The notes under the pieces were generated by a model, which saw only the letters and a list, made by a program, of their open reading frames with translations, searched no databases and was not told the DNA's origin. DNA of 64,000 nt from a virus: positions 1-64,000 of IMG/VR virus record IMGVR_UViG_3300033156_000215; one strand, given 5' to 3'. A program made the position numbers and the translations under genes. Positions 2,553 to 64,000 of this stretch are shown one piece after another. Position 1 is the stretch's first letter; every line of letters starts with the position of its first letter.

Positions 2553-2588
2553 ACTAATAAAAGAATAACTCTCTGAACCCGTAAAATA

Positions 2589-2652: not shown

Positions 2653-2703
2653 ATTGCTACCTGGAACTGAACTCATAGGCATTCTTAAAAAATCTTAGGA
2701 CTA

Positions 2704-2721
2704 TGTCATATAACTTATCCG
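2704..2721 (-). repeat. Solitary right arm of the 18-bp element
   Basis: TGTCATATAACTTATCCG, differing from the usual right arm only in the first base. No left arm lies directly upstream. With the left arm at 3036 it is one of two arms not obviously paired. Confidence 0.7.
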
Positions 2722-2883
2722 GTTAAGGTGAAGATAGAATCGAGAGAAGTTCAGAATTCATAGTTCAGTATCTTTCTGAAACTTACAGCTATCTTAGACT
2801 TAGATTCCAGGCAAAACCAGCTCTTTTGTTCTAGTGGTAAGTAGGACACTCATTCAAGATCAGAATGCGACTTACCTTAGTTA

Positions 2884-3037
2884 CGGATAGTTTATATGAC
2901 GGAGTTTTAAAGAGAAGCGGTTGTTGTTCCAGTATTAAGATATATTAATATATATTAATACCCAGAGTAAAAGCGGGTATTAAGAGTGGTAGTGAAGGAG
3001 AAGGAAAGAGAGAGATTCTCGTCATATAACTTATCCG
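2884..3037. repeat. Arm element 2: left arm 2884-2901, right arm 3020-3037
   Basis: Left arm CGGATAGTTTATATGACG and right arm CGTCATATAACTTATCCG enclose 118 bp, which include the AT-rich TATTAAG/ATTAATA tract at 2930-2963 and a purine-rich stretch. The right arm abuts the next left arm head to head. Confidence 0.75.
2930..2963. repeat. AT-rich second motif, copy 1
   Basis: CCAGTATTAAGA followed by two ATATTAAT/ATTAATAC units. The reverse complement of 40807-40846 begins with the same 12 bases, and the reverse complement of 54329-54362 carries GGTATTAAGAATTAATATTA. A shorter GGTATTAAGAG follows at about 2974-2984. Each copy lies within about 60 bp of an 18-bp arm. Confidence 0.5.
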
Positions 3038-3053
3038 GATATTTTATATGACG
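3036..3053 (+). repeat. Left arm overlapping the preceding right arm
   Basis: CGGATATTTTATATGACG shares its first two bases with the right arm at 3020-3037. The two make a 34-bp near-palindrome centred on CCGG, a plausible dyad binding site. Confidence 0.7.
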
Positions 3054-3066
3054 AAGGCTGGTAATA

Positions 3067-3219
3067 CGGATAGTTTATATGACGTAGTCTAGAACGAGAG
3101 TAAACTGGTAGTTTCTTCTGTTTTTCCTCTCGAATATCCTCGGTTTTTCTTTTCTCTGGTTTAGAATTTTTCTCTGGTATCTTTTTCTGCTGTTACCTTC
3201 ACGTCATATAACTTATCCG
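3067..3219. repeat. Arm element 3: left arm 3067-3084, right arm 3202-3219
   Basis: Both arms match the consensus forms for their orientation. The 117-bp interior is strongly pyrimidine-rich on the plus strand and has no ORF. Confidence 0.75.
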
Positions 3220-3342
3220 TTAAAAACGGAATAATAGTCCAGAAATTCTCTGGACAAAAAGAACAGGAGAAAAAGCGCCCTTTTTAATATAGTAAGAGAT
3301 TTCGTCTGGAAAAGTATTGTTAAGTACCTGGTAAATCGAGAA

Positions 3343-5542: not shown

Positions 5543-6310
5543 TTATGCACAATCAAGCAATCTTCTCTTAGCTATATCATAATACTCTTTTTCTTTCTCA
5601 ATCCCTATAAATCTCCTCCCATACTTCAAGCACACTACTCCAGTTGTACCACTTCCCATAAATGGATCAAGAACCAAATCTCCTTCATTTGTGCTTGCTA
5701 AGATAATGCGTTCTAGCAATGCTTCTGGTTTCTGTGTAGGATGTTTCCCGTAACGTTTCTCTTCTTTTCGAGGAGGAGTAATAGCCCAGACGCTACGCAT
5801 TTGTTTTCCAGGAACCTTTAGTTTGTCTTCAAATTCTCCGTTCTTCATCAACTCATAGTTGAACGTATGCTTAGCTTTCTTTGACTTTCTAGCCCATATC
5901 AAGGTCTCATGACTTGCTGTGAAATATCTACAAGATAAATTCGGAGGAGCATTAGGCTTGAACCAGCATATATCGTTTAGTATATGAAATCCTAGAATCT
6001 GTAGAGCAAACCCACAAGCATAAATGCTGTGATATGTTCCAGAAACCCAGATAGTACCGTCTGGTTTCAATACTCTACGACATGCAGAAATCCAATCCTT
6101 ATGAAACTGGAAATCTTTTTCTATCCCTTGACTACGATCCCATTTCCCTTTGTTTACACTTACAGCCCGTCCTGAGTGACAAGTAAAACCGTTGTTAGAC
6201 AAATTGTATGGCGGATCGGCAAACACCATGTCTATGCTCTCTGGTTGTAGTCTTTCCAAGACAGAAAAACAATCGTCTAGATAGATTTCACAATTCTTAT
6301 TTATCCGCAT
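5543..6310 (-). CDS. DpnA-like adenine-N6 DNA methyltransferase (255 aa)
   Basis: Beta-class order of motifs: DPPYNLSNNG (motif IV, about residues 31-40) near the N-terminus and DPFMGSGTTG (motif I, about 213-222) near the C-terminus. NLSCRYFTASHETL in the middle and KHPTQKP match the DpnA/M2.DpnII group, which methylates the adenine of GATC, including on single strands. The start overlaps the end of the ribonucleotide reductase gene by 10 bases, so they are co-translated. No cognate restriction enzyme is visible, so self-protection of phage DNA is the likely role. Last gene of the leftward block. GATC specificity is inferred from similarity only. Confidence 0.93.
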   Translation of the reverse strand: MRINKNCEIYLDDCFSVLERLQPESIDMVFADPPYNLSNNGFTCHSGRAVSVNKGKWDRSQGIEKDFQFHKDWISACRRVLKPDGTIWVSGTYHSIYACGFALQILGFHILNDICWFKPNAPPNLSCRYFTASHETLIWARKSKKAKHTFNYELMKNGEFEDKLKVPGKQMRSVWAITPPRKEEKRYGKHPTQKPEALLERIILASTNEGDLVLDPFMGSGTTGVVCLKYGRRFIGIEKEKEYYDIAKRRLLDCA

Positions 6311-8403
6311 TGGCTAAACCCACATGAAGGACAAGTAGCACAACCTTCTTTGAACTCTAGTATTGCTCCACACCTGGGACATTCAGGACTAATGCCATTT
6401 TCTGTAGAAACGTGATTCTCTGTTAGCTTCTCTAAAGCTTTAGCTACTGCATCAGAACAAGAAAGAATCTGTTGTTCATACCAAGCAGGAGCAGGGCATC
6501 TAATACCTTTCAGCTGGTCTATAATCTCACTTACTTCAATTCCAGACCTCAAAGCAAGAGAAATCATTCGAGCTAAGGCTTCAGAATACGAAGCTATGCA
6601 TCCTCCTGACTTACCTGTAGTTAGAAATACTTCACAAGGCCCATATTCATCTCTGTTCAAGGTAACATAGATATTCCTATTACATCCGAGCCTTATCTTT
6701 GTGGTAGTACCTTCTAGTTCCTTGGGTCTTTCTCTTGGAGTGATAGTATTAGCCATAACACTTTCCTGTTGATTCTTTGAATATAGCACTTGTTGCATCC
6801 TACTTCCATCTCGATATAAAGTTAGTCCTTTACACTTCAAGTGATAAGCTAACAATATTGCTTTTTCTACATCTTCTTTACTCGCTTCATTCGGAAGATT
6901 AATAGTCTTACTCACAGCATTATCAGTAAACTCCTGGAAAGTTCCTTGCATCATTACATGCCACTTAGGTTCTATATCTTTCACAGATACAAAGTAATCA
7001 CCAAACTGCTTAGGATCTACTTCCTCTGTCAAATCTCCTGCTACTTCCTTCAGAACCTGATTTACTTCAAGATATTCTCCATCCAGAACTTTCCTAACCT
7101 GAAAATAAGAGAATATAGGTTCTATACCGCTACTGCATCCAGCTATAAAGCTCAGAGATCCAGTAGGAGCTATCGTTGTAGTAGTAGCATTTCTAATCCC
7201 ATGTTTCTGAATTCTTTTACTCAGTCCTGTATGAGGCCACTTTGTTGGTAGTCTACCTTCAGCATAGATTGATTTCTCAAAAGCAGGGAAAGCTCCTTTC
7301 TCTTTAGCAAGTTCTATAGACTCAAGCTTACTTACCACATTGATTATTCTCATCACTCTTCTAGCAACATGCGTAGCTTCCAGAGAATCATACTTGACTC
7401 CCAACTTCAACAACATGTCTGCAAAACCCATCACACCGAGACCAATCTTTCTCGTCTCTTTAGTACGATTCTCAATATCAGAACTAATGTACTTATTCTT
7501 ATCTATTACATTGTCTAAAGCTCTAGTAGCAATCCTAACTACTTTCTTCAGCTTCAACCAGTCAATCTTACCATCCTTCACAAACTTACTAAGGTTTATA
7601 CTACCTAAATTACAAGACTCGTAAGGAAGAAGCGGTTGTTCTCCACAAGGATTAGTAGCTGTAATCATTCCTAATTCAGGAGTAGGGTTATATCTGTTTA
7701 TCGTGTCAATAAACACTACTCCTGGCTCACCGTTTTCCCATGCTCCTTCTACAATCTTATCAAACAAATCTCTAGCTCTAACTGTCTTTACAACATTACC
7801 TTTATCATCAACCAAGTCAAAATCATTGTCTGTCATTACCCTGTCTACAAACTCGTTAGTCAAAGCAACAGAGATGTTGAAGTTAGATAATTCTCCTTCT
7901 TGCTTCTTACAAGACAAAAAATTCTCGATATCAGGATGATCAATCCTGAGAATTCCCATGTTTGCTCCACGTCTCTTACCACCTTGCTTGATAGCTCCAG
8001 TAGCAGCATCAAAAACCTTCATGAAAGATACAGGGCCACTTGCTACTCCAGAAGTAGACTTTACCATAGAACCAGCAGGACGAAGATTCGAGAAGTCAAA
8101 TCCAGTACCTCCTCCAGTTTTATGCACAAGAGCAGCAAGTTTTACTGCTTCAAAAATGCTATCAATACTATCCTCTACAGGAAGAACAAAACAAGCACTC
8201 AACTGTCCTAGATCAGTACCAGCATTCATCAGAGTAGGAGAGTTAGGCAAGAACTCCAGATTGTACATACATTCATAAAGCTCTTTCTTATGCTTCTCGT
8301 TATCAGATAAAAAAGAAGCTACTCTATCAAATAGCATCTCAACAGTTTCACCAGGGAGCAGATACCTACTCTCTAACAAAGTCATAGCATTATCAGAGAA
8401 CAC
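6301..8403 (-). CDS. nrdJ: Class II (adenosylcobalamin-dependent) ribonucleotide reductase
   Basis: Makes deoxyribonucleotides using coenzyme B12. The finger-loop segment NPCGEQPLLPYESCNL and the N-terminal LSACFVLPVEDS supply the catalytic cysteines. HKTGGGTGFDFSNLRP is typical of the family. A TSCPD-type segment (about residues 565-640) and a C-terminal CPRC ... CPSC zinc or redox tail follow. 700 residues is normal for NrdJ, with no intein. Translation starts at GTG 8403, nine bases after AAGGAG. It supplies phage DNA precursors together with thyX at 11480. Confidence 0.95.
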   Translation of the reverse strand: MFSDNAMTLLESRYLLPGETVEMLFDRVASFLSDNEKHKKELYECMYNLEFLPNSPTLMNAGTDLGQLSACFVLPVEDSIDSIFEAVKLAALVHKTGGGTGFDFSNLRPAGSMVKSTSGVASGPVSFMKVFDAATGAIKQGGKRRGANMGILRIDHPDIENFLSCKKQEGELSNFNISVALTNEFVDRVMTDNDFDLVDDKGNVVKTVRARDLFDKIVEGAWENGEPGVVFIDTINRYNPTPELGMITATNPCGEQPLLPYESCNLGSINLSKFVKDGKIDWLKLKKVVRIATRALDNVIDKNKYISSDIENRTKETRKIGLGVMGFADMLLKLGVKYDSLEATHVARRVMRIINVVSKLESIELAKEKGAFPAFEKSIYAEGRLPTKWPHTGLSKRIQKHGIRNATTTTIAPTGSLSFIAGCSSGIEPIFSYFQVRKVLDGEYLEVNQVLKEVAGDLTEEVDPKQFGDYFVSVKDIEPKWHVMMQGTFQEFTDNAVSKTINLPNEASKEDVEKAILLAYHLKCKGLTLYRDGSRMQQVLYSKNQQESVMANTITPRERPKELEGTTTKIRLGCNRNIYVTLNRDEYGPCEVFLTTGKSGGCIASYSEALARMISLALRSGIEVSEIIDQLKGIRCPAPAWYEQQILSCSDAVAKALEKLTENHVSTENGISPECPRCGAILEFKEGCATCPSCGFSQCG

Positions 8404-38417: not shown

Positions 38418-41090
38418 TTACTCCTTGTAATTGATTATTTCCAGAAGGTTCTCGTTCCAAAGGACATTTTCGCCTTCTTTTTTATGTGTTGCTATATATG
38501 GTACGTTATTCTTAGGAAATCCGCAAAACCAATTTCTTTGTCTCTCAGGTTTCTTGAAATCTATTCTTCTCCAATTTTTTATAAGCTTAGTTAGCTCAGG
38601 CATAGCTGTCTTATTACTCTTGATAAAGTACTCGAAAAAGTATGATTTACACACACCTGCTGCTACATCTACAAAAGCTAACCAAGCAAATATTGCTCCA
38701 GTTTTTGCAGTAGCTCCAACTCCACCAGGAGGAGCTTCAAACGTAGGATGTTGAGGAGTGACAATCGTAAGCCATTCCTCAGGCTGAGGTGGTTTCTTCT
38801 CGGTTATTGTCATACTTCCTACGTTGTTGACTATTCCAATTCCTAGCGGATAAATTAGGTCTCCAGTACCGACGTTCTGTAGAACTATCTTAGGTTGGTC
38901 AATAGTCCAGCCTATAAGATAATCTTTTTCCGGATGTTTGAATCTAAAATCTATGTGAGCATTACCTTTGTTCCAAACATTGGATAAGTCTGTAATAGGT
39001 CTGGTAGAGATGTGCCTATTGATAGCTGCTACTACGTCTCCTCCAGACTTCTCCGTAGCTCTAGCATCTTTTAGCAAAGCATTAAGAGACTTTATCCAGA
39101 ACAGATTTTCTTTCTTCCAGATAGCTTCTAAATCGTCTGCTTTGCTTAGACGCTCTATTAGGATTTCTCTGGATTTAGTATCATAGATTCCTCGGCTATG
39201 AATCTGCATTACTCCTCTGGTTGGTTTATCAGTAGTAATATAATATATCTTAGAAGATATTTCTTCTTTCGGTTTGGGTTCTGAGTAGTCCAGAGCTTCT
39301 AGCGCTACTGTAACTTTGTCTGGCTCTGTTCTTTCAGGGTCTAGTTCTTCTAGAATAGGATTCTCCCAAGAGTAACCTACACTTCCATCGTCTTTTACAA
39401 ATCTTGTTATTCTATGCAATCTGACTGTAGCTATGTCTCCAAGTTCTGGTTCTACTGGTAATTTCTTGGCATAAGTAGAACCATAAGCGTACTCACCAAC
39501 GTCTCTATGTCCGAAGGCAGAATCCATCTTCCAGAGTTCTGGACATTCTAGTCCCTTCCAGTCTTTTCCTGTCCACTCTGGAGTTAGGTCTGATTCTGTT
39601 AGCTTTTTCTGAGTTTCTATTGGTACTAACTTGCTTTCAGGATCATAGATAGCACATCTTAGCATATATGTGGTAGAATCTTCTGCTAATTCTTTGTATA
39701 GTTTTATAGCTGCTTCTCCTTTTACAGGACTATGAGAAGTAGCTGGTTTTATCGCTTTCTTGAATATTCCGATAACTTTTACTTTGATTTCTTTGAAAAG
39801 CTTCATCTTAGCCCAGCCGGTTGACCTACCGTCTACATCGTAGGTGCTATCTGCTTTCTTAGCCATGAAACCTTCTGACTCTGGATATTCGATACACTTC
39901 TTCGAATATTTGTCAAAATCAGATTTATTTGTTATTCTATAGCTTGGAAGCAAACGAATTGATTTTAGATTAGATTCCTGTTGTACTACTGTCCGTAAAA
40001 TTTTCTGTCTATCTTCCAGGGGATGATCTGTAAGATCTTCCCCGTCTTTGTATATTAAGTCGAAGACGTAATACACTATACCTTCGACTGGAGTATTAGA
40101 GCTGGTAATGGCAATCATATCAGCTCTATCTTTTCCAGGAAGAACTGCTTCTCCGTCTAGGATTACTGAATCACAATTTAGAGACCTTAGATCTTCTACT
40201 AGCTCTGGGAGATAATCAGCACGGTCTCGTTTTCTGTCTTCTGTGAAGATTGCTATCTTGCCTCCACGCTTGTGAGCCATAAGACGTACACCGTTTATCT
40301 TGGGTTCGATATAGAAAGGTAGGTTGGGTTCTCCCCAATGTTCCCAGAAACTCTTAGGATCGTAGAAAGTATATTCACCATATCCTGTTTGAGACTTGAG
40401 AGGTTGAATCGGTCTTAGGGGAGAAACTTCAAGAGCTTGGATTTTCTCATCTCTCGGTTTGAAAGCAATCCAGTATAAAGGTTCTGCATTCTTAGGTGTT
40501 CTATTTTCTTCCACTTCAGCTCCGTAGAGACGAGCAAGCTTGACTTGTAGTCCTGGAGTAAGCATCTTGCAGTACAGCTTTTTCTTGTCCGTGAAAACAA
40601 AAGGAGAGAATATCTCTATATTCGGATAGTTTATATGACGCGTCTCTTCGGGGAATGGATAAAGAACTAAGTCTCCTAGAATCTTGTAATTCCTGTCAGG
40701 GCCTAAAGGCTCATAGAGAAAGTGAATCGGGAGTCCGTCATATAACTTATCCGTAGATAAGAGCTTGGTGATTATCTTCTCTAGCCCTGGGAGCTTGTTG
40801 GGACTGCGTATTAATATATCTATATCATTAATATTCTTAATACTGGAATCGCTGACTGAAGAACCTACCTGAATCACCGCATCTCGTATAAATGTCATAG
40901 GCTCTAGAACCTTGAGAACTGATGGTGACATCCCTCTTCGTAGCATCTCTTGGAAGTAATCTCTAGCGAGTAGTGCATACTCCAGCTTTGTTTCTGGAGA
41001 TATTGCCTCTTTTTTGAGATGCATAGTAAGATATCTCCAGTCATTCAGAAGTTCCTTGTCAGATTTTTCCTGCAAGTCTCCCCTAATCAT
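38418..41090 (-). CDS. Nucleotidyltransferase-ATP-dependent DNA ligase fusion with LigD-PE-like end (890 aa)
   Basis: Three parts. Residues 60-165: Pol-beta-type nucleotidyltransferase with GSS and an NDIDILIRS metal motif. Residues 240-590: ATP ligase core with EPKINGVRL (motif I, K about 264, KxNG instead of KxDG), ILDGEAVL (III), YYVFDLIY (IIIa), EGFMAKK (IV) and WAKMKLFKEIKV (V). C-terminal third: HIDFRF plus strands, like the LigD phosphoesterase signature. It lies inside the head module between portal and capsid genes. A pair of 18-bp arms lies within its coding sequence at 40623-40753. Confidence 0.75.
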   Translation of the reverse strand: MIRGDLQEKSDKELLNDWRYLTMHLKKEAISPETKLEYALLARDYFQEMLRRGMSPSVLKVLEPMTFIRDAVIQVGSSVSDSSIKNINDIDILIRSPNKLPGLEKIITKLLSTDKLYDGLPIHFLYEPLGPDRNYKILGDLVLYPFPEETRHINYPNIEIFSPFVFTDKKKLYCKMLTPGLQVKLARLYGAEVEENRTPKNAEPLYWIAFKPRDEKIQALEVSPLRPIQPLKSQTGYGEYTFYDPKSFWEHWGEPNLPFYIEPKINGVRLMAHKRGGKIAIFTEDRKRDRADYLPELVEDLRSLNCDSVILDGEAVLPGKDRADMIAITSSNTPVEGIVYYVFDLIYKDGEDLTDHPLEDRQKILRTVVQQESNLKSIRLLPSYRITNKSDFDKYSKKCIEYPESEGFMAKKADSTYDVDGRSTGWAKMKLFKEIKVKVIGIFKKAIKPATSHSPVKGEAAIKLYKELAEDSTTYMLRCAIYDPESKLVPIETQKKLTESDLTPEWTGKDWKGLECPELWKMDSAFGHRDVGEYAYGSTYAKKLPVEPELGDIATVRLHRITRFVKDDGSVGYSWENPILEELDPERTEPDKVTVALEALDYSEPKPKEEISSKIYYITTDKPTRGVMQIHSRGIYDTKSREILIERLSKADDLEAIWKKENLFWIKSLNALLKDARATEKSGGDVVAAINRHISTRPITDLSNVWNKGNAHIDFRFKHPEKDYLIGWTIDQPKIVLQNVGTGDLIYPLGIGIVNNVGSMTITEKKPPQPEEWLTIVTPQHPTFEAPPGGVGATAKTGAIFAWLAFVDVAAGVCKSYFFEYFIKSNKTAMPELTKLIKNWRRIDFKKPERQRNWFCGFPKNNVPYIATHKKEGENVLWNENLLEIINYKE
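40623..40753. repeat. Arm element 4, inside the ligase gene
   Basis: Left arm CGGATAGTTTATATGACG (40623-40640) and right arm CGTCATATAACTTATCCG (40736-40753) are both perfect and sit in the coding region for the nucleotidyltransferase domain. They encode RHINYPN and TDKLYDG without breaking the frame. Confidence 0.75.
40807..40846. repeat. AT-rich second motif, copy 2 (in the ligase gene)
   Basis: The reverse complement begins CCAGTATTAAGAATATTAAT and ends ATATATTAATAC, matching 2930-2963. It encodes SSIKNINDIDILIR of the nucleotidyltransferase, so part of the similarity may be coding constraint. Confidence 0.4.
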
Positions 41091-52482: not shown

Positions 52483-53598
52483 TTAGTTTTTAGTTCTTAG
52501 TGCTTGATGAAACCATGTTGGGAACTTCTCGTAATTCTGTCTGTAGAACCACTCAAAGTTCGAATCAATTATATACGTTACGCTATAGTCTGTCAAGTCA
52601 CGAGAACACCTCCCTGAACCTTGCACAAGTGATGATATTGTTTTCCAAGAATACCATTCATTCCAGTCAACTCCTTTTGGTGCTATAGAGTCTAGCTTAG
52701 GGAAGGGCATCTTGGCAAATATGATAAACCTTCCTAAATCGTGCGGAAGATCTAATCCACGGATAACGGATGGAGAGACTAGAATTCTACCATAACCTGA
52801 GCGGAATCTTTCAATTAGAGAAGTACGAGAAACAGACCTCGATTGATAGAGAATCGAGTCTTGAGGTAAATTAGCAGTTAGATATTTTCCAATCTCTTCC
52901 GTTAGGTACATGTTCACCGAGTGTACTATTCCACGCCAGTTGTTTAGCTTCGTGCATAATTCTAGCACAGCCGGTAGCAGCTTGTCAAGATTTGGATTTG
53001 AAAGCGAAACGTGTGCTTTCGGCTGATAGACAATCGGTCTTATCTCTGGCTTGATGTATAAATCATTGACCGAGATAAATGAGTAATTGTCCATAAAAGC
53101 AGATAGGTTCTTATCTGCAAGAAACAGCTCAGAATTCAGAATTGTTGCCGACATCACAACTAGAACATTAGCATACGGAATCAGAGAAGACAAATCTTTG
53201 ATCTCGTCTGCTTCATCGATCACAACAACATCAGCGGGGGACTTGCTAAGAGAAGCAGTAAGCTTATAGTTTAGCACTTGAATCTCGCTATCTTTTATTT
53301 TCTTGTCCAATAAATCCTCCAGAGGTAGAAGGTTTGTTAGGACTTTCTCTCTGCTACCTACATGCATTCCTAAGCCATAGAAACCACTGGCATCGAGATA
53401 TTGTTCTTGGAGTTGTTTCGTAGCTGTGAAGATTACAGTTCTTCTCGATTTAAAGACAAAATGAACTGCTGCTCCAAGATAACTCTTTCCAGAACCTGTC
53501 GGAGCTTCGATCAAGATAACACGTTTCGAAGTGTCCAGATTGTCTAGGACGTATTTCTGTATTTCTCTGGGTACAACTTGCGAATAGATATCTGTCAT
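52483..53598 (-). CDS. Superfamily 2 helicase, DinG/XPD-like compact form (371 aa)
   Basis: EAPTGSGKS (motif I, about 31-39), TATKQLQEQYL (Ia), VVIDEADE (II), VMSATI (III), SPSVIRGLDLP (V), GSGRCSRD (VI). Only 371 aa, lacking most of the arch/iron-sulphur region of DinG. Starts in an ATGA overlap with the RHH gene. Unwinds DNA during replication or recombination. Confidence 0.9.
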   Translation of the reverse strand: MTDIYSQVVPREIQKYVLDNLDTSKRVILIEAPTGSGKSYLGAAVHFVFKSRRTVIFTATKQLQEQYLDASGFYGLGMHVGSREKVLTNLLPLEDLLDKKIKDSEIQVLNYKLTASLSKSPADVVVIDEADEIKDLSSLIPYANVLVVMSATILNSELFLADKNLSAFMDNYSFISVNDLYIKPEIRPIVYQPKAHVSLSNPNLDKLLPAVLELCTKLNNWRGIVHSVNMYLTEEIGKYLTANLPQDSILYQSRSVSRTSLIERFRSGYGRILVSPSVIRGLDLPHDLGRFIIFAKMPFPKLDSIAPKGVDWNEWYSWKTISSLVQGSGRCSRDLTDYSVTYIIDSNFEWFYRQNYEKFPTWFHQALRTKN

Positions 53599-54362: not shown

Positions 54363-54401
54363 TGTCTGTAGTTTTTCCAAGTCTCAAAAAAATTCTTATT
54401 C

Positions 54402-54588
54402 CGGAGAAATTATATGACGAAGAAAGGGCCGCTCTTGGCGGCCCCTTTTTAATATATAGGAATTTAATTGGTTGTGTACTAAGCTATGTTTCCTAACCTT
54501 GACCGTTTACTACAGTTACCTCCTAGCTGAAAATCTGTGCGTCTAGTCATTTTTTCATCCTATGTCTCGGCGTCATATAACCTATCCG
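54402..54588. repeat. Arm element 5: left arm 54402-54419, right arm 54571-54588
   Basis: The left arm is degenerate (CGGAGAAATTATATGACG); the right arm CGTCATATAACCTATCCG has one change. The interior holds the terminator at 54426-54450. Confidence 0.65.
54426..54450 (+). terminator. Intrinsic terminator
   Basis: GGGCCGC, loop TCTTG, GCGGCCC, then CTTTTT. Ends the rightward transcript of the gene at 53880. Confidence 0.75.
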
Positions 54589-54651
54589 TAGTATTTATAT
54601 CACAATTGGCCTGGACTGGCAAATTCTGTATGCGTTATCTAGTTGCAACTA

Positions 54652-54727
54652 AAAGGGAATGCGAGCGGATCTCTCCACTCGCATAGGGTGCTTGGAGCCA
54701 CACCTTTCTCCGAACTTCTTTGGATTG
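54652..54727 (-). ncRNA. Putative small RNA (about 75 nt), leftward
   Basis: Starts about 7 bases after the extended -10 at 54738-54733 and ends with hairpin ATGCGAG/CTCGCAT (54684-54659, with an inner GGA/TCC) followed by CCCTTTT on the minus strand. A GGTG/CACC stem lies in between. No ORF of size. The gene-free setting and promoter-terminator pairing support a small RNA. Confidence 0.5.
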
Positions 54728-54732
54728 TTCTC

Positions 54733-54797
54733 ATTATACCATGAAGCATTAAGAATCGTTCTGTAGTCTTTATACCACGAGTTACTCGGATACGCAA
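54733..54797 (-). promoter_or_regulatory. Two tandem leftward promoters
   Basis: P2: TTGCGT (54797-54792), 17 bp, TGG TATAAA (54774-54769). P1: TGG TATAAT (54738-54733) without a good -35. Both read into the small RNA at 54652-54727. Confidence 0.5.
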
Positions 54798-54801
54798 ATA
54801 A

Positions 54802-54922
54802 CGGATAGTTTATATGACGAAAGAGTGATCTGGACTTGAGCTTGCTAGCAACTACTTTCGTGTTAGGAATGAGAAAGCCATCTCAATTTTGCTGTTTCAC
54901 AGAACGTCATATAACTTATCCG
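54802..54922. repeat. Arm element 6: left arm 54802-54819, right arm 54905-54922
   Basis: Both arms are perfect consensus forms and enclose 85 bp. The right arm ends 67 bp before the strong rightward promoter, and the left arm touches the leftward promoter P2. Confidence 0.75.
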
Positions 54923-54989
54923 TATCTTGGGTTAACCCGCCCAGCTAAGTCCGACCAACTGGCGGGCTATTTCGGAAATAGGTCGAAAC

Positions 54990-55018
54990 TTGACAACGGC
55001 ACCGCTATATGGTATAAT
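54990..55018 (+). promoter_or_regulatory. Consensus promoter of the rightward array operon
   Basis: TTGACA, exactly 17 bp, TATAAT, with ATATGG directly before the -10. The best sigma-70-type promoter seen in the window. It drives 55156 onward. Confidence 0.8.
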
Positions 55019-55027
55019 CAAGGCAGA

Positions 55028-55159
55028 ATGGACAGATTGAGAATGTCCAAAGTTAAACGAAGAATAAACCAAAAATACTGGAAAAATAAAGGCCAGGTCA
55101 GGGAAACTTTTGTTTCTTTTGGCCTGGCTTTTGTTTTAACTAAAAGGAGAGAAAAATGA
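55028..55159 (+). CDS. Possible 43-aa basic leader peptide
   Basis: ATG at 55028 lies within a few bases of the expected transcript start, so it would be nearly leaderless. It reads through the terminator-like hairpin and ends in an ATGA overlap with the next gene. Very basic (MSKVKRRINQKYWKNK). It could be a coupling leader ORF or chance. Confidence 0.3.
   Translation: MDRLRMSKVKRRINQKYWKNKGQVRETFVSFGLAFVLTKRREK
55088..55136 (+). terminator. Terminator/attenuator in the operon leader
   Basis: AAAGGCCAGG (55088-55097) pairs with CCTGGCTTTT (55123-55132) around an inner GAAAC/GTTTC hairpin, followed by GTTTT. Lies between the promoter at 54990 and the first gene at 55156, so expression may need antitermination. 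Confidence 0.55.
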
Positions 55160-55539: not shown

Positions 55540-55566
55540 TTAGATAAAATAAACTTAGGCTATTCT

Positions 55567-55622
55567 AGGTTTACTGCGGCAACTAAAATGAAGGTTGCCG
55601 TGGTAAGCCTATTCCCTTTTTT
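55567..55622 (+). terminator. Strong terminator before the AAA+ gene
   Basis: AGGTTTACTGCGGCAAC pairs along 17 positions (some G-U) with GTTGCCGTGGTAAGCCT around a 10-base loop, then ATTCCCTTTTTT. No promoter is seen between it and 55679. Confidence 0.7.
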
Positions 55623-55678: not shown

Positions 55679-56719
55679 ATGAGACCGAAGGACGTGAAAA
55701 ACCTGCTGAAGAGTCTTTATCCAGACGGGCCGTGTGTTTTCTTAATCGGGGCATCGGGTGTTGGTAAGTCAGAAATTGTGAAACAAGTAGCTGATGAACT
55801 AGGTGTAGGATTTTGTGTTCTTGACATGATTCTCCAAGACGAGGTAGTGATGCATGGTATTCCAGATCTTAACCAAGATTGGTTAGAATGGAAACCATCA
55901 AAGGAGATTCCTTTCGAAGGAAATGATGCGTTCCCTGAAAATGGTATTTTGTTCCTCGACGAGTTTAATTGTGCTCGTAGAGGATTACAAACTCTCGGCT
56001 ACCAGCTTGCACTTGAAAGAAGAATAGGCAGCCATCGTCTGAAGAAAGGTTGGTATCCTGTTTTTGCAGGGAATAGGGTACAGGATCAAGGAGAAATTTT
56101 TGATGTTCCTGGCCCCCTGAAGAACAGGGTTCTTAAAGTTGACTTCACGGTCAACTTGCAAGACTGGCTGCAATATGCGATTAGCCACGATGTATCCGAT
56201 GAGATTATTGGATACATCATGTGGTCAGCTCAGGGCATCGAAGAAGGTGTTGATGTCTTGGGCAATCTTATCAATCTGGAGTTGGCTGATAAAGATTGGA
56301 ATTGGCCAACTCCGAGAGCTTGGGCAAGAAATGTTGATTTCTTGCTCAAGAAAGGTATTCGTAGTTTGGAGGCAATTGCTGGCTGCATTGGACAAGTTGC
56401 AGCCAGTGAATTTCTAGGTTACTTAGAAGTTGTTTCTAAGTTACCTAAAGTTGAGGATTTCTTGGCAGGTAAGGCTGAATTCCCAGCCGAACCACATCTG
56501 CAATATGCTCTGATTGCTAGCATGATTAAATATGCTAGTAATCAAGAACGTATTGACAAGGTTCTTTTGCGTGTCACTCAAGGTGATATCCCTGAAGAGT
56601 ATGCTGCTATGTTAATTCAGCAGATATGTTCTACGCATACTGCTGAATTCTTCGCCTCGCCTTACCAGATGGATGCTCTGGCTAAGGCGGGAGAAATCTT
56701 CATCGAGGAGGAAGACTAG
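55679..56719 (+). CDS. MoxR-type AAA+ ATPase (346 aa)
   Basis: LIGASGVGKSE (Walker A, about 22-32), GILFLDEFNCARR (Walker B plus Arg, about 88-100), an FAGNR sensor-1 region, then DVPGPLKNRVLKVDF (arginine-finger segment) and a helical lid. MoxR ATPases remodel or assemble protein complexes together with VWA proteins, and the next gene is such a partner, one base away. Starts after TTAAGGAG. Confidence 0.9.
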   Translation: MRPKDVKNLLKSLYPDGPCVFLIGASGVGKSEIVKQVADELGVGFCVLDMILQDEVVMHGIPDLNQDWLEWKPSKEIPFEGNDAFPENGILFLDEFNCARRGLQTLGYQLALERRIGSHRLKKGWYPVFAGNRVQDQGEIFDVPGPLKNRVLKVDFTVNLQDWLQYAISHDVSDEIIGYIMWSAQGIEEGVDVLGNLINLELADKDWNWPTPRAWARNVDFLLKKGIRSLEAIAGCIGQVAASEFLGYLEVVSKLPKVEDFLAGKAEFPAEPHLQYALIASMIKYASNQERIDKVLLRVTQGDIPEEYAAMLIQQICSTHTAEFFASPYQMDALAKAGEIFIEEED

Positions 56720-56720
56720 G

Positions 56721-57899
56721 ATGGACGAACAAAAGCTTTTTCGTAAGTTTCGCTCAGTAAGAGCGGAACTTATGTTGGAGAATCAGATGTTTGGGGCCGT
56801 AGTTATGCAGCTACGGCCCCAACTAGAACTAACCGATGAAGAATTTGTAGCATCGGTTAGTGGGGATGGAAAGTTGTCGTTAGGCAAGAGATTCTTTGAG
56901 TTTACAAAAGAGGAACAAAAAGGAATCCTTGCCCATGAAGTTCTTCATGTTGCTCTTTCTCACCTTGATAGGATGGGAAAAAGCAATATGGAGTTGTGGA
57001 ACATTGCAGCGGATCTTGTAGTTAATGATTTGCTGTTGAGTTCCAATTTCCAACTCCCAAAAGAAGGACTTTTTGATAGAGATTTATCAAGAAGTCCTGA
57101 AGGGAAGTTATTAAGCGTAGAAAAAGTTTACAAGACCTTGACTGATAAAGTAAAACAGTTTCAGCAAGGTCAAGGTAACAGTAATCAACAGCAAAATTCT
57201 GATGGTTCATCTGGTGATGGTTTTGACCAGATGAGTCAAAAAAGGTTCGATAAGCATATCCCTGGAAAAGGGGAATCTTCCTCTTTTTCAGAAACAATCA
57301 AGAGGATTGTATCGGGCTTTTCTAGTATGCCTGGCACAATGCCAGGTGAAATGCAAGAGTATCTGAAGGAAAGTCTTGCGCCAAAGCTAGATTGGCGTGA
57401 GCTTCTCCGACGTTATCTTCAGAAAGTAACTGAGGATAACGTAAACTGGAGAAAGAGAAAAGAGTTCCTTAGAAACTTTGGTTATTTCCCGACACTAGAA
57501 ACAGAGGATAAAGTAAATGTTATCTTCTGTATAGACGTATCGGGAAGCATATCTCCAGAGGATTTACAGAAGTTCTATTCTGAAATCCTCGGAGTTATCA
57601 GAGCTGTACAATTGTCCAAAGTTACAGTTGTACAGTTTGATACTGAAATAACAAACGTAGAAGAAATTAGTTCTAGTTCTTCCCTGCAAGAAATAAAAAT
57701 TGTAGGGAGAGGTGGAACTGACTTTGCTTGTCTGGAAAATATTTCAGACAAGATTAGCAAGAAAGCGGACGTGGTTATTCTCATGTCCGATTTCTACGCT
57801 AATAGTCTTGATACTTACATCGCTGACGAAATGATCTATTTAGTAGTAGATAATGATGATTTCGATAGCGGTGTGTACAAGACAATACATTTAGATTAA
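56721..57899 (+). CDS. VWA-domain protein with metallopeptidase-like N-terminus, DUF2201-like (392 aa)
   Basis: HEVLHVALSH (about 74-83) is a zinc HExxH motif inside a helical N-terminal domain; the C-terminal VWA domain shows FCIDVSGSIS (MIDAS) and GRGGTDF. A Gln/Asn/Ser-rich linker is at about 150-180. Start 56721 after GAGGAGG; a longer frame lies in the ATPase gene. Pairs with the MoxR protein as in known MoxR-VWA modules. Confidence 0.9.
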   Translation: MDEQKLFRKFRSVRAELMLENQMFGAVVMQLRPQLELTDEEFVASVSGDGKLSLGKRFFEFTKEEQKGILAHEVLHVALSHLDRMGKSNMELWNIAADLVVNDLLLSSNFQLPKEGLFDRDLSRSPEGKLLSVEKVYKTLTDKVKQFQQGQGNSNQQQNSDGSSGDGFDQMSQKRFDKHIPGKGESSSFSETIKRIVSGFSSMPGTMPGEMQEYLKESLAPKLDWRELLRRYLQKVTEDNVNWRKRKEFLRNFGYFPTLETEDKVNVIFCIDVSGSISPEDLQKFYSEILGVIRAVQLSKVTVVQFDTEITNVEEISSSSSLQEIKIVGRGGTDFACLENISDKISKKADVVILMSDFYANSLDTYIADEMIYLVVDNDDFDSGVYKTIHLD

Positions 57900-57917
57900 T
57901 CTGAAGGAAGGTGATAC

Positions 57918-58712
57918 ATGTCGATTGAACCAATCTTGACGGTGAAGAACAAGAGAATAATCATTATCCATCCAAAAGAGTCGCTGAGAGTAGACATATT
58001 AGAAGAATTCCAAGATAAAGCTGCTTCTTATCTTGGTAAACTTAGAGAATGCACTGCTATTAAGGTACCTTACTTGTCTGACTTGTCAGATGTTGTTCTC
58101 GTAGATGATAGTATTGCCTATTTCGAAAAAGTAGGTAATACTATCGTAGATAAGCAAGGAAACATAGCAGGCTTGCTCGTTAATCAAACTCGTGAAGTAG
58201 TTTCTACTATAGACAATGACGATGCAGCCGATCAGCTGTTTGACATTGTTTACGAGTTTAAGTATACATTACGTAATATTGATAATGCTCCAAAAGATAT
58301 GAAGTTGGAGCAAGTATTGGGATGTACAAAGACGAATCCTGTCGTACAGACTAATTTAGGTCTGTACGTAAATTACATGCTGTTTGACAATTCTCTGAAG
58401 AACTTGATTCTTTCTCCTTTTTTCAAGAAGCTCGATTTCTACCTTTTCCCTGTATTTGCATTAGGAAAAGAAGTAGAAATTTCTGAAGAGGAAGATGCCC
58501 TCTTTAATTGCAACAAAGTGATGTTCAAAGAAATTCACACTTTGTTGCAAGCTTTGGAAGAGAAAAGAGAGGTAATAGTCAAAGTTTACAACAAAGCAGG
58601 AGTTTTAATAAACAGAGAATTAATCTATACAAGGATAAGACCCAGTAGGGTTATTCATCCTACTTTTCTCTCTAGCTTTGGCCCTACATGGGTTCACTAT
58701 CTAATTAGATGA
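57918..58712 (+). CDS. Array paralog, short subfamily 1 (264 aa)
   Basis: GAAGGAGGT-like leader (GAAGGAAGGTG). Signatures: YFEKVGNTIVDKQGNIAGLL (about 72-92), NLGLYVNYMLFDNSLKNLI, then SPFFKKLDFYLFPVFALGKE (about 175-195), a helical segment, and a C-terminal RELIYTRIRPSRV turn plus final strand. No known domain, signal or membrane helix. First member directly after the VWA gene. Confidence 0.85.
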   Translation: MSIEPILTVKNKRIIIIHPKESLRVDILEEFQDKAASYLGKLRECTAIKVPYLSDLSDVVLVDDSIAYFEKVGNTIVDKQGNIAGLLVNQTREVVSTIDNDDAADQLFDIVYEFKYTLRNIDNAPKDMKLEQVLGCTKTNPVVQTNLGLYVNYMLFDNSLKNLILSPFFKKLDFYLFPVFALGKEVEISEEEDALFNCNKVMFKEIHTLLQALEEKREVIVKVYNKAGVLINRELIYTRIRPSRVIHPTFLSSFGPTWVHYLIR

Positions 58713-58744
58713 ACAAGACGATACATTTAGATTAGGAGGAAACA

Positions 58745-59545
58745 ATGAGAGATCTGGTAATTCAGAACGGACGTATTCTTGTTAAAGGTAAAAATAACTA
58801 TATAGATCTCTTCGAATCCTATGGGGAGCATGCTTGGCAAAAGTTAAGACTTGTAAAGCATACTTCTGGAGAAAGTTTGCCAAGGCTTAATGATATCAAA
58901 GATCTGGTATTGGTAGACTACGATGACGTCTTCTACGAAAAAGTAGGAAACAAGATAATGAATAAGTACGGTGAAACTGTAGGCATTATTCAGGATAACC
59001 GTGCTTTTGTTTTTCTCTTTGACAGACCAGAGGAAAGGCATATTTCAGATGCATTAGCTTTCTTCAAAGTTGATGCAATCACTATAGGAGTAACGAAAAA
59101 GGTACATCCTATAGAAATAGTGGGAATGCAGAAAGATCTAAGCAGGCCGATAATAAGGACAGACTACGGCTTGTATATAAATAAAATGTTCTTTGATGAA
59201 AAGTGGGAGAGTACTCTATGCTCTCCCATTTTCCAGAGGTTTGAATTTTATCTCTTTCCTGTAATTGCTTTAGGTGAAGAGGTTGATATCTCTGACAATG
59301 AGGAACGACTTTTTTATAACGCTAGGTTGAGATTGAGCGTGCTGGAATCCTTGATTAAAGCTTTTGAAAATGGAAAAGAAGTTATTGGTAGGTTGCACTG
59401 GAAGAGCTATGATCCTTTAGTTCTTGATGAGCATTATCGAAAACTGATTTACACGAAAATAAAACCTAGGCTTGAAGTCGAAGTTCTTTACGAAGGTATT
59501 GTGTCTACGTGGTATTTAGAATACTATATAAAAGATGAATTCTAG
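58745..59545 (+). CDS. Array paralog, short subfamily 2 (266 aa)
   Basis: Same plan as the preceding gene: YEKVGNKIMNKYGETVGII, YGLYINKMFFDEKWESTLCS, SPIFQRFEFYLFPVIALGEE, RKLIYTKIKP. TTAGGAGG leader. Function unknown. Confidence 0.85.
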   Translation: MRDLVIQNGRILVKGKNNYIDLFESYGEHAWQKLRLVKHTSGESLPRLNDIKDLVLVDYDDVFYEKVGNKIMNKYGETVGIIQDNRAFVFLFDRPEERHISDALAFFKVDAITIGVTKKVHPIEIVGMQKDLSRPIIRTDYGLYINKMFFDEKWESTLCSPIFQRFEFYLFPVIALGEEVDISDNEERLFYNARLRLSVLESLIKAFENGKEVIGRLHWKSYDPLVLDEHYRKLIYTKIKPRLEVEVLYEGIVSTWYLEYYIKDEF

Positions 59546-59639
59546 TCAAATTGGCCCCGCTCCTTTGCTTTATCTAATCAAAGAGTATAAGTTGTCTAAT
59601 AAGACAGCAGAAAAAGACGAGAAGGAGACAGATTAAACA

Positions 59640-60419
59640 ATGGCTATGTGGGAAGTAATAAACGAAAGGTTGTATGTCAAGGATCCAGAAACTGGACACA
59701 AGTCTGATGAAGCTAAAAAAGATAAGCCTTTCGACGATCTCAATTTCTGGCTTCCTGTCTACGGATATGAGAAAATAACTTATGATTCCCTGCCAGAAAA
59801 GGTTGTCCTGTTAGATCGTGATGGACAGTTCTTTAAGAAAAACGGAGAGTATATTGAGAATCGAGAAGGAAAGAAGATTGCTTGTCGTATCGGTGATTTA
59901 CATTTTAGCTTTCTAACTGATGATTGGGACGAAATAAGGTTAGGCTCAATCCTAAGAAGATTGAAGGGCTTGCTATATAACATCAGAAATGCACCTGAAG
60001 ATCTTGAGATTTATAGACTAGTTGGAAAAGAACGGTCGTACAAATTAATAGAGACCAACAAGGGAATCTTTGTAAACCGTTATCTCGTTGATTCTGAACA
60101 TCTAAAGTTGCTACAGTCTCCGATATTAGATAAGGTTGAGTTTTTTGAATTTCCTTTGTTTGTTAGCACAAGCGAAGGAAAGGTTTTCGAAGATCCACCA
60201 AAAGAATTGCAGCAATCTCATAACTTTATCAAGACAGTTTATGAATTTATAGACGCTTTAGAAAGTGGTCACAAGGTATATGTTTATTTAGGCTCAAGAA
60301 AGAAAAAACCTTTGGTATTGCGAAGGATAACATATACTGGAATAAAGTTGAACGGAACGATACCTGATATGTCGAAAAAAGTTATTGATCCTGTATATTT
60401 CGTTTATCTTATTGAGTAG
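59640..60419 (+). CDS. Array paralog, short subfamily 3 (259 aa)
   Basis: More divergent: FFKKNGEYIENREGKKIA, KGIFVNRYLVDSEHLKLL, SPILDKVEFFEFPLFVSTSE, RRITYTGIKLNGT. Preceded by a 94-base gap, the longest within this run, with AGAAGGAG about 12 bases before the ATG. Function unknown. Confidence 0.85.
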   Translation: MAMWEVINERLYVKDPETGHKSDEAKKDKPFDDLNFWLPVYGYEKITYDSLPEKVVLLDRDGQFFKKNGEYIENREGKKIACRIGDLHFSFLTDDWDEIRLGSILRRLKGLLYNIRNAPEDLEIYRLVGKERSYKLIETNKGIFVNRYLVDSEHLKLLQSPILDKVEFFEFPLFVSTSEGKVFEDPPKELQQSHNFIKTVYEFIDALESGHKVYVYLGSRKKKPLVLRRITYTGIKLNGTIPDMSKKVIDPVYFVYLIE

Positions 60420-60439
60420 TAAAGAAGGGGAATATCCGA

Positions 60440-61243
60440 ATGAACAATTCAAGATATTTTGTGGAGGATGGAAGACTTAAAAGCGTAAATCCCTGGGACG
60501 GAAAGATTGTAGATGTGCTGAGACATAGTAACAGAAAACCTTACATATATTTCGCATCCGTCTCAAACAGAACAGGCGAAGATCCACCTTACTTTTTCGA
60601 TTTACCTGACTTTGTTATCTATGAAGACGGAGTCAGAATTTTTAAGAAGATGGGAAACAATATTGTAGATAGGAAAGAGAATGTGATAGCACTAGGCGAT
60701 CGTGATCTAGGCGCTGCCTATTGCATAGTAGAAACTAAAATCGGAACCACAATCCTCGACGATACTTTGTCTGCACTTGGAGTTGATCTTAATTGCTTGT
60801 ACTCAGTAGAGAAAATAAAGCTGGAGAAGATTTTGGGTTACTATGGAAGATACTTTCCAATACTCCAGACAGATCATGGGATTTTTGCAGATCAATTGTT
60901 CTTCGACAACTCTCTAAAAGAGATAATCTGTTCTCCAATGCTGAACAAGACAGACTTTGTGATTTTCCCTGTCTTTGCTTTAGGAAAAGAGTATTCGTTA
61001 ACAAAAGAAGAAGAAAAGAAGCTTACTTGTCAGAGAGTGACAGGTAAATTTATTTACAGTCTAATTGAGTTTTGTAAGCAGAACGATTCAAAGATTTTGG
61101 TACAAAGATGGAATACCTTGCAGATGGACTGTATATATCGAGAATTGGTTTTTACTGGAATTGAACCAAAAGCTGAGTTACTCGATGCAGTCTTCAGTTC
61201 GTCTCCGAACGGCTATATTACTTTTGTAGTCGTAGACAGATAA
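60440..61243 (+). CDS. Array paralog, short subfamily 4 (267 aa)
   Basis: IFKKMGNNIVDRKENVIALG, HGIFADQLFFDNSLKEIIC, SPMLNKTDFVIFPVFALGKE, RELVFTGIEPKAE. Leader AAGAAGGGG. The C-terminal FTGIEP turn links this short subfamily to the long one. Function unknown. Confidence 0.85.
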   Translation: MNNSRYFVEDGRLKSVNPWDGKIVDVLRHSNRKPYIYFASVSNRTGEDPPYFFDLPDFVIYEDGVRIFKKMGNNIVDRKENVIALGDRDLGAAYCIVETKIGTTILDDTLSALGVDLNCLYSVEKIKLEKILGYYGRYFPILQTDHGIFADQLFFDNSLKEIICSPMLNKTDFVIFPVFALGKEYSLTKEEEKKLTCQRVTGKFIYSLIEFCKQNDSKILVQRWNTLQMDCIYRELVFTGIEPKAELLDAVFSSSPNGYITFVVVDR

Positions 61244-61255
61244 TTAGGAGTAACG

Positions 61256-62347
61256 ATGAGATCAATACCATCTAGCGATAACAAGATGTATACGCTGCGT
61301 AGCTCAATGCTAGATATTATGGAACGAAAAGGAAACAGAATAAATCTAACTACGGTCATGCTTAACTATGGAAAAGTTGATAGCTATGGAAGAGTACTTT
61401 TCCCAGTCTTCAGCATAGATGTTGCTGAAGTAACTGAAGAAGAGAACAGAAGAATAATAACCTTTCTATCAGAACTATCTCCAGATATCCAGTCAGAACT
61501 ATATGATTTCTTACGTATAGGATTTTTTGAAGAAGTAAGGTATGGTTTAGAAATAGGAAATGTAAACCACGCAGCCTTGAAATCTAAATATAAGCCATTG
61601 CCAGATATAAGCTCTGTTGCAGATAGTCATTTATTGCTGATTCTCAACGCTTGCCGTATAGAAAACAAAAACTTAGAAAAGATGGTTTTTGAGGAAAAAC
61701 CTTTTACTGGAATAAATAAAAATATATTAGTTTTGAGAGATGTCTTAGTAGGCATAATCTCAAAAGAAAGGTGTGTTTTCGATAATCACGCTACTCTTAT
61801 CTACGATAAGATATGCGCTTGTCCTTTTATCTGGCATCTGACAGATTATTGTTCGAGCATTAGAGTTACACCCTTTCCTTATGAGATTCATGAAATAACA
61901 TATGATAAGCCTCCTTCGATTTTGGATAAAGCGTATCTTACTTTTGATACAGCTGTACATTACGTTGACTCGGATTCAGACTTTGCTATAGATTTTGGTG
62001 ATGTTGTCTTCACATCGAACTTCAGTTATTCAGGCAACGAGAGAAAGAAACTTGCCAATCCAGTGTTTATAAATTTACTAGCAAACCAAAAAACGTTTCT
62101 AGGGCCTTCGTTCATTCTGAAAGAGACGGATAAGAGTGCAAAAGAATTTAGTTGGAAAAGTGCAGACATTAGAAATTATAAATCTGGAATCAAGGCAGGT
62201 ATAAATTATGCCTTGGCTGAGAAAGATGGAAAGATGTATTATTTTTCTGGAGGTGTAGTATATGAAATAATTCCGACTGGAGTTCAACCAAACAAAATAG
62301 AATTCAAGTTCGCAGAAGATTGTTATTACGTTATAGAGTGTGGCTAA
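61256..62347 (+). CDS. Array paralog, long subfamily (363 aa)
   Basis: TTAGGAG, then TAACG, then ATG. N-terminal helical region, then EKPFTGINKNILVLRDVLVG (about 140-160), NPVFINLLANQKTFLGPSFI (about 265-285), and EIIPTGVQPNKI at the C-terminus. Its start region is complementary, bar one base, to the putative small RNA at 15314. Function unknown. Confidence 0.85.
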   Translation: MRSIPSSDNKMYTLRSSMLDIMERKGNRINLTTVMLNYGKVDSYGRVLFPVFSIDVAEVTEEENRRIITFLSELSPDIQSELYDFLRIGFFEEVRYGLEIGNVNHAALKSKYKPLPDISSVADSHLLLILNACRIENKNLEKMVFEEKPFTGINKNILVLRDVLVGIISKERCVFDNHATLIYDKICACPFIWHLTDYCSSIRVTPFPYEIHEITYDKPPSILDKAYLTFDTAVHYVDSDSDFAIDFGDVVFTSNFSYSGNERKKLANPVFINLLANQKTFLGPSFILKETDKSAKEFSWKSADIRNYKSGIKAGINYALAEKDGKMYYFSGGVVYEIIPTGVQPNKIEFKFAEDCYYVIECG

Positions 62348-62370
62348 GAATAAAGATAAGAGGATAAAAC

Positions 62371-63453
62371 ATGGAGCTAATGCAACGAAACGGAAAACAT
62401 CATTACTTGACCGATTCTTACTACATGATTTACTTTACTGAAGGAAATCTGGTCAAAAGAATATCTTATGATTTGACGGAACCACACATGGACAATGAAG
62501 GTTTTATGCGGTTTCCTGCCGAAAGTCGTGTACTGGCTAAAACAAGCAGAGTAAATTATGGAAGAAAGATTCTAATGCCTCCGTGTAATTACGGAGATAA
62601 AGCAACGCAAAGACATTTAGCTCAAGTACTGAAATTATCTCCGTATGAATCGTTTGTACGGACTGAAAAATACGAGGATCTTTTTACACGTGAAGTAAGC
62701 AACGAAAAACTGAATCTAAAGAATTTGAGTCTAGAAAAAACAGCCAAGGTATTAGTATCTATACGCTTGGATCGTATTACAGATCAGAAAAGGACTATTG
62801 TCTGCAAGAAGCCTTTTACTGGCGTTTACAATAACGTACTTATGATTGCTGATAAAATAATTGGAATTCTATATGGTAATTCTTTCTTTCTAGCTTATGG
62901 CATTTATCCGAAAGTAAAACTAGCAACAGAAGACGATCTATATCGTAGTTTTGTAAAAAGTGGGTACTACTGCAAAAAGATAATGCTGGCTGAATCGTTG
63001 ATGGAGAACTATGAAAAGAGAAAACCGGTTCTAATAAACAAAAATTACTTAGGTACACGTATATACGGTAAGTCTCACTATAATCTTGATTACATGATTG
63101 AACTTAGTGACAAGATATACACAGCTTTATTTAGCTATCCGAAATACGTAAAAGAAAGATTCAGCAATCCTTTGTTTGCCAAGCTACTTCAGAAACAAAA
63201 AGTTTTCCTTGGGCCTTCCTTTGTTCTCAAAGAAGTAGATCGGCCTTCAAAATTAAAATGGAAATATATAAAGCTTATAACGTTTGGATACGAATCCGCT
63301 ATTTATGAAAGGTGTGGATCCCTAGCTAGAGATGGAGAAAAACTTTATTATGATAATGATACGGGTACTTATGAAGTGATAGCGACTGGAATAGAACCAA
63401 GGATATTTAAGATTCACGAAAATGATTTTTGTTTTAGAGTCTATACTGGGTAA
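62371..63453 (+). CDS. Array paralog, long subfamily (360 aa)
   Basis: KKPFTGVYNNVLMIADKIIG (about 149-168), NPLFAKLLQKQKVFLGPSFV (about 268-288), EVIATGIEPRIF at the end. AGAGGA leader. Closest to the gene at 61256. Function unknown. Confidence 0.85.
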   Translation: MELMQRNGKHHYLTDSYYMIYFTEGNLVKRISYDLTEPHMDNEGFMRFPAESRVLAKTSRVNYGRKILMPPCNYGDKATQRHLAQVLKLSPYESFVRTEKYEDLFTREVSNEKLNLKNLSLEKTAKVLVSIRLDRITDQKRTIVCKKPFTGVYNNVLMIADKIIGILYGNSFFLAYGIYPKVKLATEDDLYRSFVKSGYYCKKIMLAESLMENYEKRKPVLINKNYLGTRIYGKSHYNLDYMIELSDKIYTALFSYPKYVKERFSNPLFAKLLQKQKVFLGPSFVLKEVDRPSKLKWKYIKLITFGYESAIYERCGSLARDGEKLYYDNDTGTYEVIATGIEPRIFKIHENDFCFRVYTG

Positions 63454-63498
63454 GTCAGATCAAAACGTTAAGAATTTTAGAGTTGGAGAATAGTTAGG

Positions 63499-64000
63499 GT
63501 GGCAAGAATCGAAGTCATAACCGAGAACAAGAATATTTACAGATTGTATAACGAGAAGGTGGAGAAATATGAACTGAAAGAAGATGGAATATTCAGGACT
63601 AAATATTTTCTGGACGATGTCTTGGTTGACAAAGGTAAAGTTTATGTCAAAGCTGAGATGCAGAAAGTAATAGAACAAAGTTCTGAATGTATTACGGTAG
63701 AAAGCAGTCTACCTAAAACAGTTGCTGAGAAATGCTTAGGTACTTATTATCCAGAATATATTTGTTCTGGAGCTGATTTATTAGTAGTCAGATACGCAGT
63801 AGAAGGAACAAACAGGATAGAACAAAAGAAATTTGCAAAAGTTGAGGATTATGTCGAACCTAGCATAATAACAGAGTTGTGTTTTGATCTAGCTACCAAG
63901 TCTGTTATACATATTCTAGAGAATAGTCCGTTTAGAACAGGGCTGAACGAACTAATAATAAACGAAGATCCGTTTACTGGAGTGAAGGGTAATTCTGGAA
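63499..64000 (+). CDS. Array paralog, long subfamily (partial, cut by window end)
   Basis: GTG at 63499, ten bases after TTGGAG. Open to the last base: 167 complete codons. It reaches INEDPFTGVKGNSG, matching the KPFTGV signature of the preceding genes, so roughly the second half is missing. It could continue at base 1 if the sequence is circular. Confidence 0.75.
   Translation, partial: MARIEVITENKNIYRLYNEKVEKYELKEDGIFRTKYFLDDVLVDKGKVYVKAEMQKVIEQSSECITVESSLPKTVAEKCLGTYYPEYICSGADLLVVRYAVEGTNRIEQKKFAKVEDYVEPSIITELCFDLATKSVIHILENSPFRTGLNELIINEDPFTGVKGNSG

Follow-up and report, generated by a model that had tools for sequence, protein, structure and literature searches.

A phage MoxR/metallopeptidase-VWA gene pair followed by an array of fourteen paralogs, its candidate clients

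Described pairs of a MoxR-type AAA+ ATPase and a von Willebrand factor A (VWA) domain protein hold a partner through the VWA domain and use ATP to alter its conformation or assembly (PMC7159879). In phages, gp24 and gp25 of N4 (Schitoviridae) count among the core genes for which no function is known (PMC4193335), and for the MoxR/peptidase-vWA pair of jumbo phages Iyer et al. (2021) proposed a role in virion assembly and proteolytic processing (PMC7824862). Here we describe a pair of this type in the IMG/VR virus record IMGVR_UViG_3300033156_000215 (70,722 bp), together with fourteen contiguous paralogous genes (p1–p14) that follow it and may encode its clients. The stretch of DNA analysed, hereafter the window, comprises bases 1–64,000 of this record; the part of the array beyond position 64,000 was read from the remaining record.

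Judged by its sequence, the pair itself is an already known phage module. N4 gp24-gp25 show the same succession of a MoxR gene and a metallopeptidase-VWA gene, with the same domain order and motifs, whereas in N4-like relatives the pair flanks a small gene, lacks a paralog array and neighbours replication or nucleotide genes (dCTP deaminase, helicase or DNA polymerase). The jumbo-phage pair likewise combines a MoxR partner with a vWA co-chaperone that bears a metallopeptidase at its N-terminus, but the pair reported here belongs to a 70.6-kb phage and is followed by a 14-gene paralog array. Virion genes adjoin the pair in cyanophage S-TIM54 and jumbo phage PHA46, and in roseophage RPP1 it lies in a middle-expressed second structural module (PMC4193335). 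RavA-ViaA of E. coli also consists of an AAA+ MoxR protein and a VWA partner; however, the VWA region found here matches ViaA far under the cut-off (E = 1.7e-5, 24.2 bits versus 500) and is accompanied by a peptidase domain. The MoxR plus vWA core is further shared with the MoxR-vWA ternary systems (eLife 2020, PMC7159879), which derive from a multicellular bacterium rather than a phage; in the paralogs scanned against Pfam, no VMAP, iSTAND, FtsH or beta-propeller component was found, nor did the structure model of p1 match a propeller. For the p1–p14 family, which appears to be unassigned, no relative was found by sequence, profile or fold, leaving no known system with which to compare it.

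The MoxR/metallopeptidase-VWA pair

Both proteins matched PHROG families over their full length: the ATPase matched phrog_1297 (E = 4.8e-62, residues 1–341 of 346) and the VWA protein phrog_1314 (E = 3.9e-74, residues 16–407 of 408). The MoxR ATPase retains an intact Walker A motif (GASGVGKS), Walker B motif (ILFLDE), the conserved Asn and an Arg-finger candidate, and GKS, LFLDE, GN and R150 were invariant in an alignment with phage relatives. A profile built from the alignment with four phage relatives gave midasin as the best match in the PDB, and identity to these four aligned representatives was 21–28%. The partner protein carries an N-terminal DUF2201_N domain with an intact HEVLH (HExxH) motif and ends with a C-terminal DUF2201 VWA domain, in which the metal ion-dependent adhesion site (MIDAS; DVSGS) is likewise intact (DxSxS-T-D = D288/S290/S292, T349, D373); neither Pfam nor PADLOC revealed an effector family. 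The two genes are adjacent on the same strand, the MoxR stop at 56719 being followed by the probable VWA start at 56721. On these grounds the pair called by a first-pass annotation, made from the letters of the window, is real.

Using tblastn, relatives of the VWA protein were found in 734 phage records and relatives of the ATPase in 799, chiefly from N4-like Schitoviridae. The name of phrog_1314 in PHROGs, repeated in many GenBank records, is "HNH endonuclease"; as the domain evidence is that of a metallopeptidase plus VWA, the label looks wrong.

The paralog array and its common C-terminal module

The first 114 bp of the record are identical to the last 114 bp (1–114 and 70609–70722), and the open reading frame (ORF) of p12 continues in frame across the join of the ends, giving a protein of 325 aa that matches p13 end to end at 50%; the record therefore closes to a circle of 70,608 bp. 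The terminal direct repeat may be either the overlap of a circular-map assembly or a short true repeat. On the closed circle, p1–p14 form an uninterrupted + strand run of about 15 kb, corresponding to 21% of the genome (Table 1). Seven paralogs follow the pair within the window, p7 being cut at 64000, and three (the p12 tail, p13 and p14) lie at its other end, as the first-pass annotation had noticed; the complete array is larger than it appeared there. The proteins comprise 259–611 aa, a wider range than the 260–385 aa first given, and fall into size classes of 259–267 aa (p1–p4), 360–398 aa (p5–p9), 611 aa (p10), 325–326 aa (p11–p13) and 385 aa (p14). The VWA gene and p1 are separated by 18 bp and the remaining array gaps range from -41 to 94 bp; Shine-Dalgarno sequences precede nearly all array genes, and promoter-like sites inside the array are fewer than in shuffles.

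Sequence comparison revealed that the paralogs are related beyond chance, with BLAST links down to E = 1e-115 and a profile-profile match of p1–p4 to p10–p13 at E = 1.4e-7. All 14 end in a common C-terminal module of about 125 aa (Y), of which p10 to p13 carry a second full or partial copy, giving 18 copies in total. A Y profile seeded only from p5–p13 found p14 (E = 2e-11) and p4 (4e-5) and, more weakly, p1 (0.006) and p2 (0.015), and p3 was tied in through p1 (BLAST E = 4e-23). Across Y, pairwise identity lies between 11 and 59%. Paralogs that adjoin in the genome resemble each other more closely than in random orders (mean 31% versus 24%, p = 6e-5), which is the mark of an array that arose step by step through tandem duplication, and of old rather than recent date. 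One Thr is invariant in all 14 full Y copies. Hydrophobic and aromatic residues, Gly, Pro and Lys make up the commonest positions otherwise, and no catalytic motif is visible among the conserved Y positions.

The view that the paralogs carry no membrane segments and no known domain was upheld: the maximal 19-residue hydropathy stayed below 1.6, indicating no membrane segment, and Pfam, PHROGs, NCBIfam and PADLOC gave no convincing family for any paralog, in scans that did not compare every paralog with every library and with PADLOC covering defence rather than counter-defence proteins. The suggested profile and structure check likewise matched no known structural family. Two paralog profiles matched no PDB sequence, and an AlphaFold model of p1 from a four-row alignment (pLDDT 84.9, pTM 0.79) retrieved nothing at E <= 0.001 from PDB or BFVD with Foldseek; query TM-scores among the listed matches reached about 0.2 at most. 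Taken from this one model, the p1 fold is likely new; it is mixed alpha/beta, and the initial description of the paralogs as all-beta did not hold for it. The model of p6 (B-type) was of low confidence (pLDDT 43). From these properties we infer that the paralogs are binding or structural proteins with a non-catalytic role.

Searches in other genomes returned no second array. No match was obtained by tblastn with p1, p6, p8, p10, p13 and p14 against 50,697 phage records, p13 was not found in plasmids, and no homolog appeared in scans of viral contigs (paralog, VWA or TerL queries) or genome contigs, which were pattern-based, reach only moderately close relatives and possibly left out the record itself and near-identical ones. 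Two paralog profiles, one of which, as a positive control, recovered the array from the record analysed here, found nothing in 40 whole viral records carrying the pair. A MoxR gene lies within 3 kb in 68 of 80 viral VWA loci, most of the others starting too near the locus end, and none of these 80 other loci contains an array of at least three paralogs except for an HNH-like family in one of them (L019); its three members around the VWA gene have the look of HNH homing endonucleases and do not form a comparable array. BLAST matches of p2 to ORFs about 1.7 kb downstream of the VWA gene in four loci (L045, L062, L066 and L083; E = 0.02–0.07) were judged to be chance, because the paralog-family profiles do not find them, and a further locus (L095, MT835968) looked bacterial rather than phage. 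In these collections, neither the paralog family nor its 14-copy expansion and location behind the pair has a precedent, as read from the sequence of one genome.

Table 1 Features of the pair, the array and their surroundings (window positions; "contig" refers to the full record)
Feature	Position	Strand	Remark
MoxR-type AAA+ ATPase, 346 aa	55679–56719	+	N4 gp24 family (phrog_1297)
Metallopeptidase-VWA protein	56673–57899	+	N4 gp25 family (phrog_1314); likely true start 56721
p1, 264 aa	57918–58712	+	Y module aa 139–249
p2, 266 aa	58745–59545	+	
p3, 259 aa	59640–60419	+	
p4, 267 aa	60440–61243	+	
p5, 363 aa	61256–62347	+	Y module aa 241–363
p6, 360 aa	62371–63453	+	Y module aa 239–360
p7, 368 aa	63499–64000 (contig 63499–64605)	+	cut by window end
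p8–p11	contig 64617–69750	+	beyond window
p12, 325 aa	contig 69761–70722, across join	+	C-terminal end at 1–130
p13, 326 aa	151–1131	+	two Y modules; 50% identical to p12
p14, 385 aa	1094–2251	+	most divergent; Y module aa 256–382
Extended sigma-70 promoter, perfect, TTGACA-N17-TATAAT	54990–55018	+	TG preceding -10 box; presumed to drive the + arm
Leader ORF, 127 aa	55156–55539	+	no known family
Terminator-like hairpin, 19 pairs	55566–55611	+	between leader ORF and MoxR; possible attenuator or antitermination point
19-bp site clusters	2588–3220; 40622–40754; 54401–54923		
CcrM-like adenine methyltransferase	5543–6310	-	
Class II (B12-dependent) ribonucleotide reductase	6301–8403	-	
Head protein, 767 aa	34805–37108	-	matches families of head maturation proteases and of major head proteins

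Phage type and control region

By its gene content, the record represents a tailed phage with a long tail, encoding terminase, tape measure, minor tail protein, DNA polymerase A, exonucleases, helicase and a B12-dependent ribonucleotide reductase, as well as a maturation protease fused to a head region; comparison with sequenced phages showed it to be close to none of them. The head protein is similar to phrog_29592 over most of its length and is possibly a protease-capsid fusion. Genes on the - strand occupy about 5.5 to 53.9 kb, and the remainder is a + strand arm that starts near 53.9 kb, crosses the join, ends near 5.2 kb and holds the MoxR/VWA pair and the paralog array.

Two perfect TTGACA-N16..18-TATAAT promoters are present in the window (0.04 expected), one on the - strand (52568–52596) and one ahead of the pair on the + strand, the latter being the probable driver of the + arm. 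The hairpin between this promoter and MoxR is a possible attenuator or antitermination point and suggests regulated read-through. A second GC-rich hairpin with a T-run, spotted by eye at 55090–55130 between promoter and leader ORF, together with the former suggests attenuation. The search against Rfam gave no match.

An asymmetric 19-bp site, CGTCATATAANNTATCCGT, occurs in 14 copies in three clusters (0.14 expected), mostly as inverted pairs 23–152 nt apart with unrelated intervening sequence. Two of the clusters bracket the paralog operon and one site pair lies inside an ORF; the sites could serve a regulator, replication or recombination. Two other viral contigs contained a single match each, about what chance would give, with no related genes there.

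Possible clients of the pair and competing explanations

We tentatively favour the explanation that the paralogs, co-transcribed with the pair, are clients which it remodels or assembles. The + strand arm is probably one operon, presumably expressed early as a single transcript, which would start with a standard phage chaperone pair, joining a MoxR AAA+ ring with a VWA co-chaperone that carries a fused zinc-peptidase-like domain. The paralogs, generated by repeated tandem duplication and divergence as non-enzymatic binding or structural proteins, would be captured at the MIDAS site of the VWA domain, their common Y module serving as handle, ATP would be used to fold, assemble or release them, and the peptidase domain would perhaps trim them. 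This client relationship is supported by the 18-bp gap between VWA and p1, the tight packing, the Shine-Dalgarno sequences, the few internal promoters and the upstream promoter, by the Y module ending all 14 paralogs as a candidate common handle, by the residue types at its conserved positions, the missing catalytic motif and the low hydropathy, and by the intact MoxR/VWA motifs together with the midasin match and the remodelling of partners by known pairs (PMC7159879). That the pair adjoins virion genes in several unrelated phages (S-TIM54, PHA46, RPP1) also speaks for such a role. Several observations weigh against it: the terminator-like hairpin separates the promoter from MoxR, no common C-terminal tag is visible in the paralogs by eye, and co-location in an operon alone is weak evidence of physical partnership. 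Moreover, the survey of pair-carrying phages that the first-pass annotation had called for found the pair conserved in hundreds of phages without such an array and no second array genome in the collections searched, which leaves no co-occurrence statistic; since it is found in so many array-free phages, the pair must have other or additional substrates and does not need the paralogs. The more specific proposal of a dedicated set of 14 diversified new-fold clients, recognised by their common C-terminal module and acting as combinatorial host- or virion-directed binders, appears doubtful.

Nearly as likely as the client relationship is that the array expanded independently of the pair, in this lineage, as a set of early accessory proteins (binders or inhibitors for host takeover or anti-defence) that share only the operon with it. 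The occurrence of the pair without the array everywhere else searched fits this explanation, as does the arm itself, which runs on the other strand from the structural and replication genes and is headed by a perfect host-type promoter; copies so highly divergent (11–59% over Y), small, soluble and free of a catalytic motif would also suit a diversified binder family. However, PADLOC (a library of defence, not counter-defence, proteins) gave no match, and the 18-bp spacing to p1 and the first place of the pair in the operon favour some link between the two. The paralogs might instead be virion components, such as tail or head accessory proteins that the chaperone-peptidase pair matures as a second structural module. 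Here the virion genes next to the pair in S-TIM54, PHA46 and RPP1, the proposal of Iyer and colleagues for the jumbo-phage pair (PMC7824862), the module repeats and a pattern of conservation that looks structural have to be set against the location of all capsid, portal, terminase and tail genes on the other strand, the lack of a match to known virion proteins in PHROGs or, for the p1 model, Foldseek, which by itself is still compatible with a virion role, and the unusual number of 14 divergent accessory virion proteins, so that we regard this explanation as unlikely. The first-pass annotation had put forward a virion-assembly role as undescribed; for such pairs it had already been proposed (PMC7824862), and what is new in the collections searched is the array itself. 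Its suggestion of a ternary conflict system would make the paralogs the effectors or the third component of a phage-borne MoxR-vWA system. It draws on a MoxR-vWA core with extra variable components that resembles the described grammar (PMC7159879), but the scans showed none of the four third components that define such systems, the ATPase scored far below the bpMoxR cut-off (12.4 versus 27 bits) and the families of both MoxR and VWA are widespread in phages, making it highly improbable.

Hundreds of phages have a MoxR-VWA pair with a fused peptidase among their core genes, and the fourteen adjoining paralogs provide concrete candidate substrates for such a pair. An orphan family, probably with a new fold, that occupies about a fifth of the genome represents a large investment for the phage. 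If the paralogs are indeed dedicated clients, the locus would constitute a multi-client MoxR-VWA system of a kind not described before.

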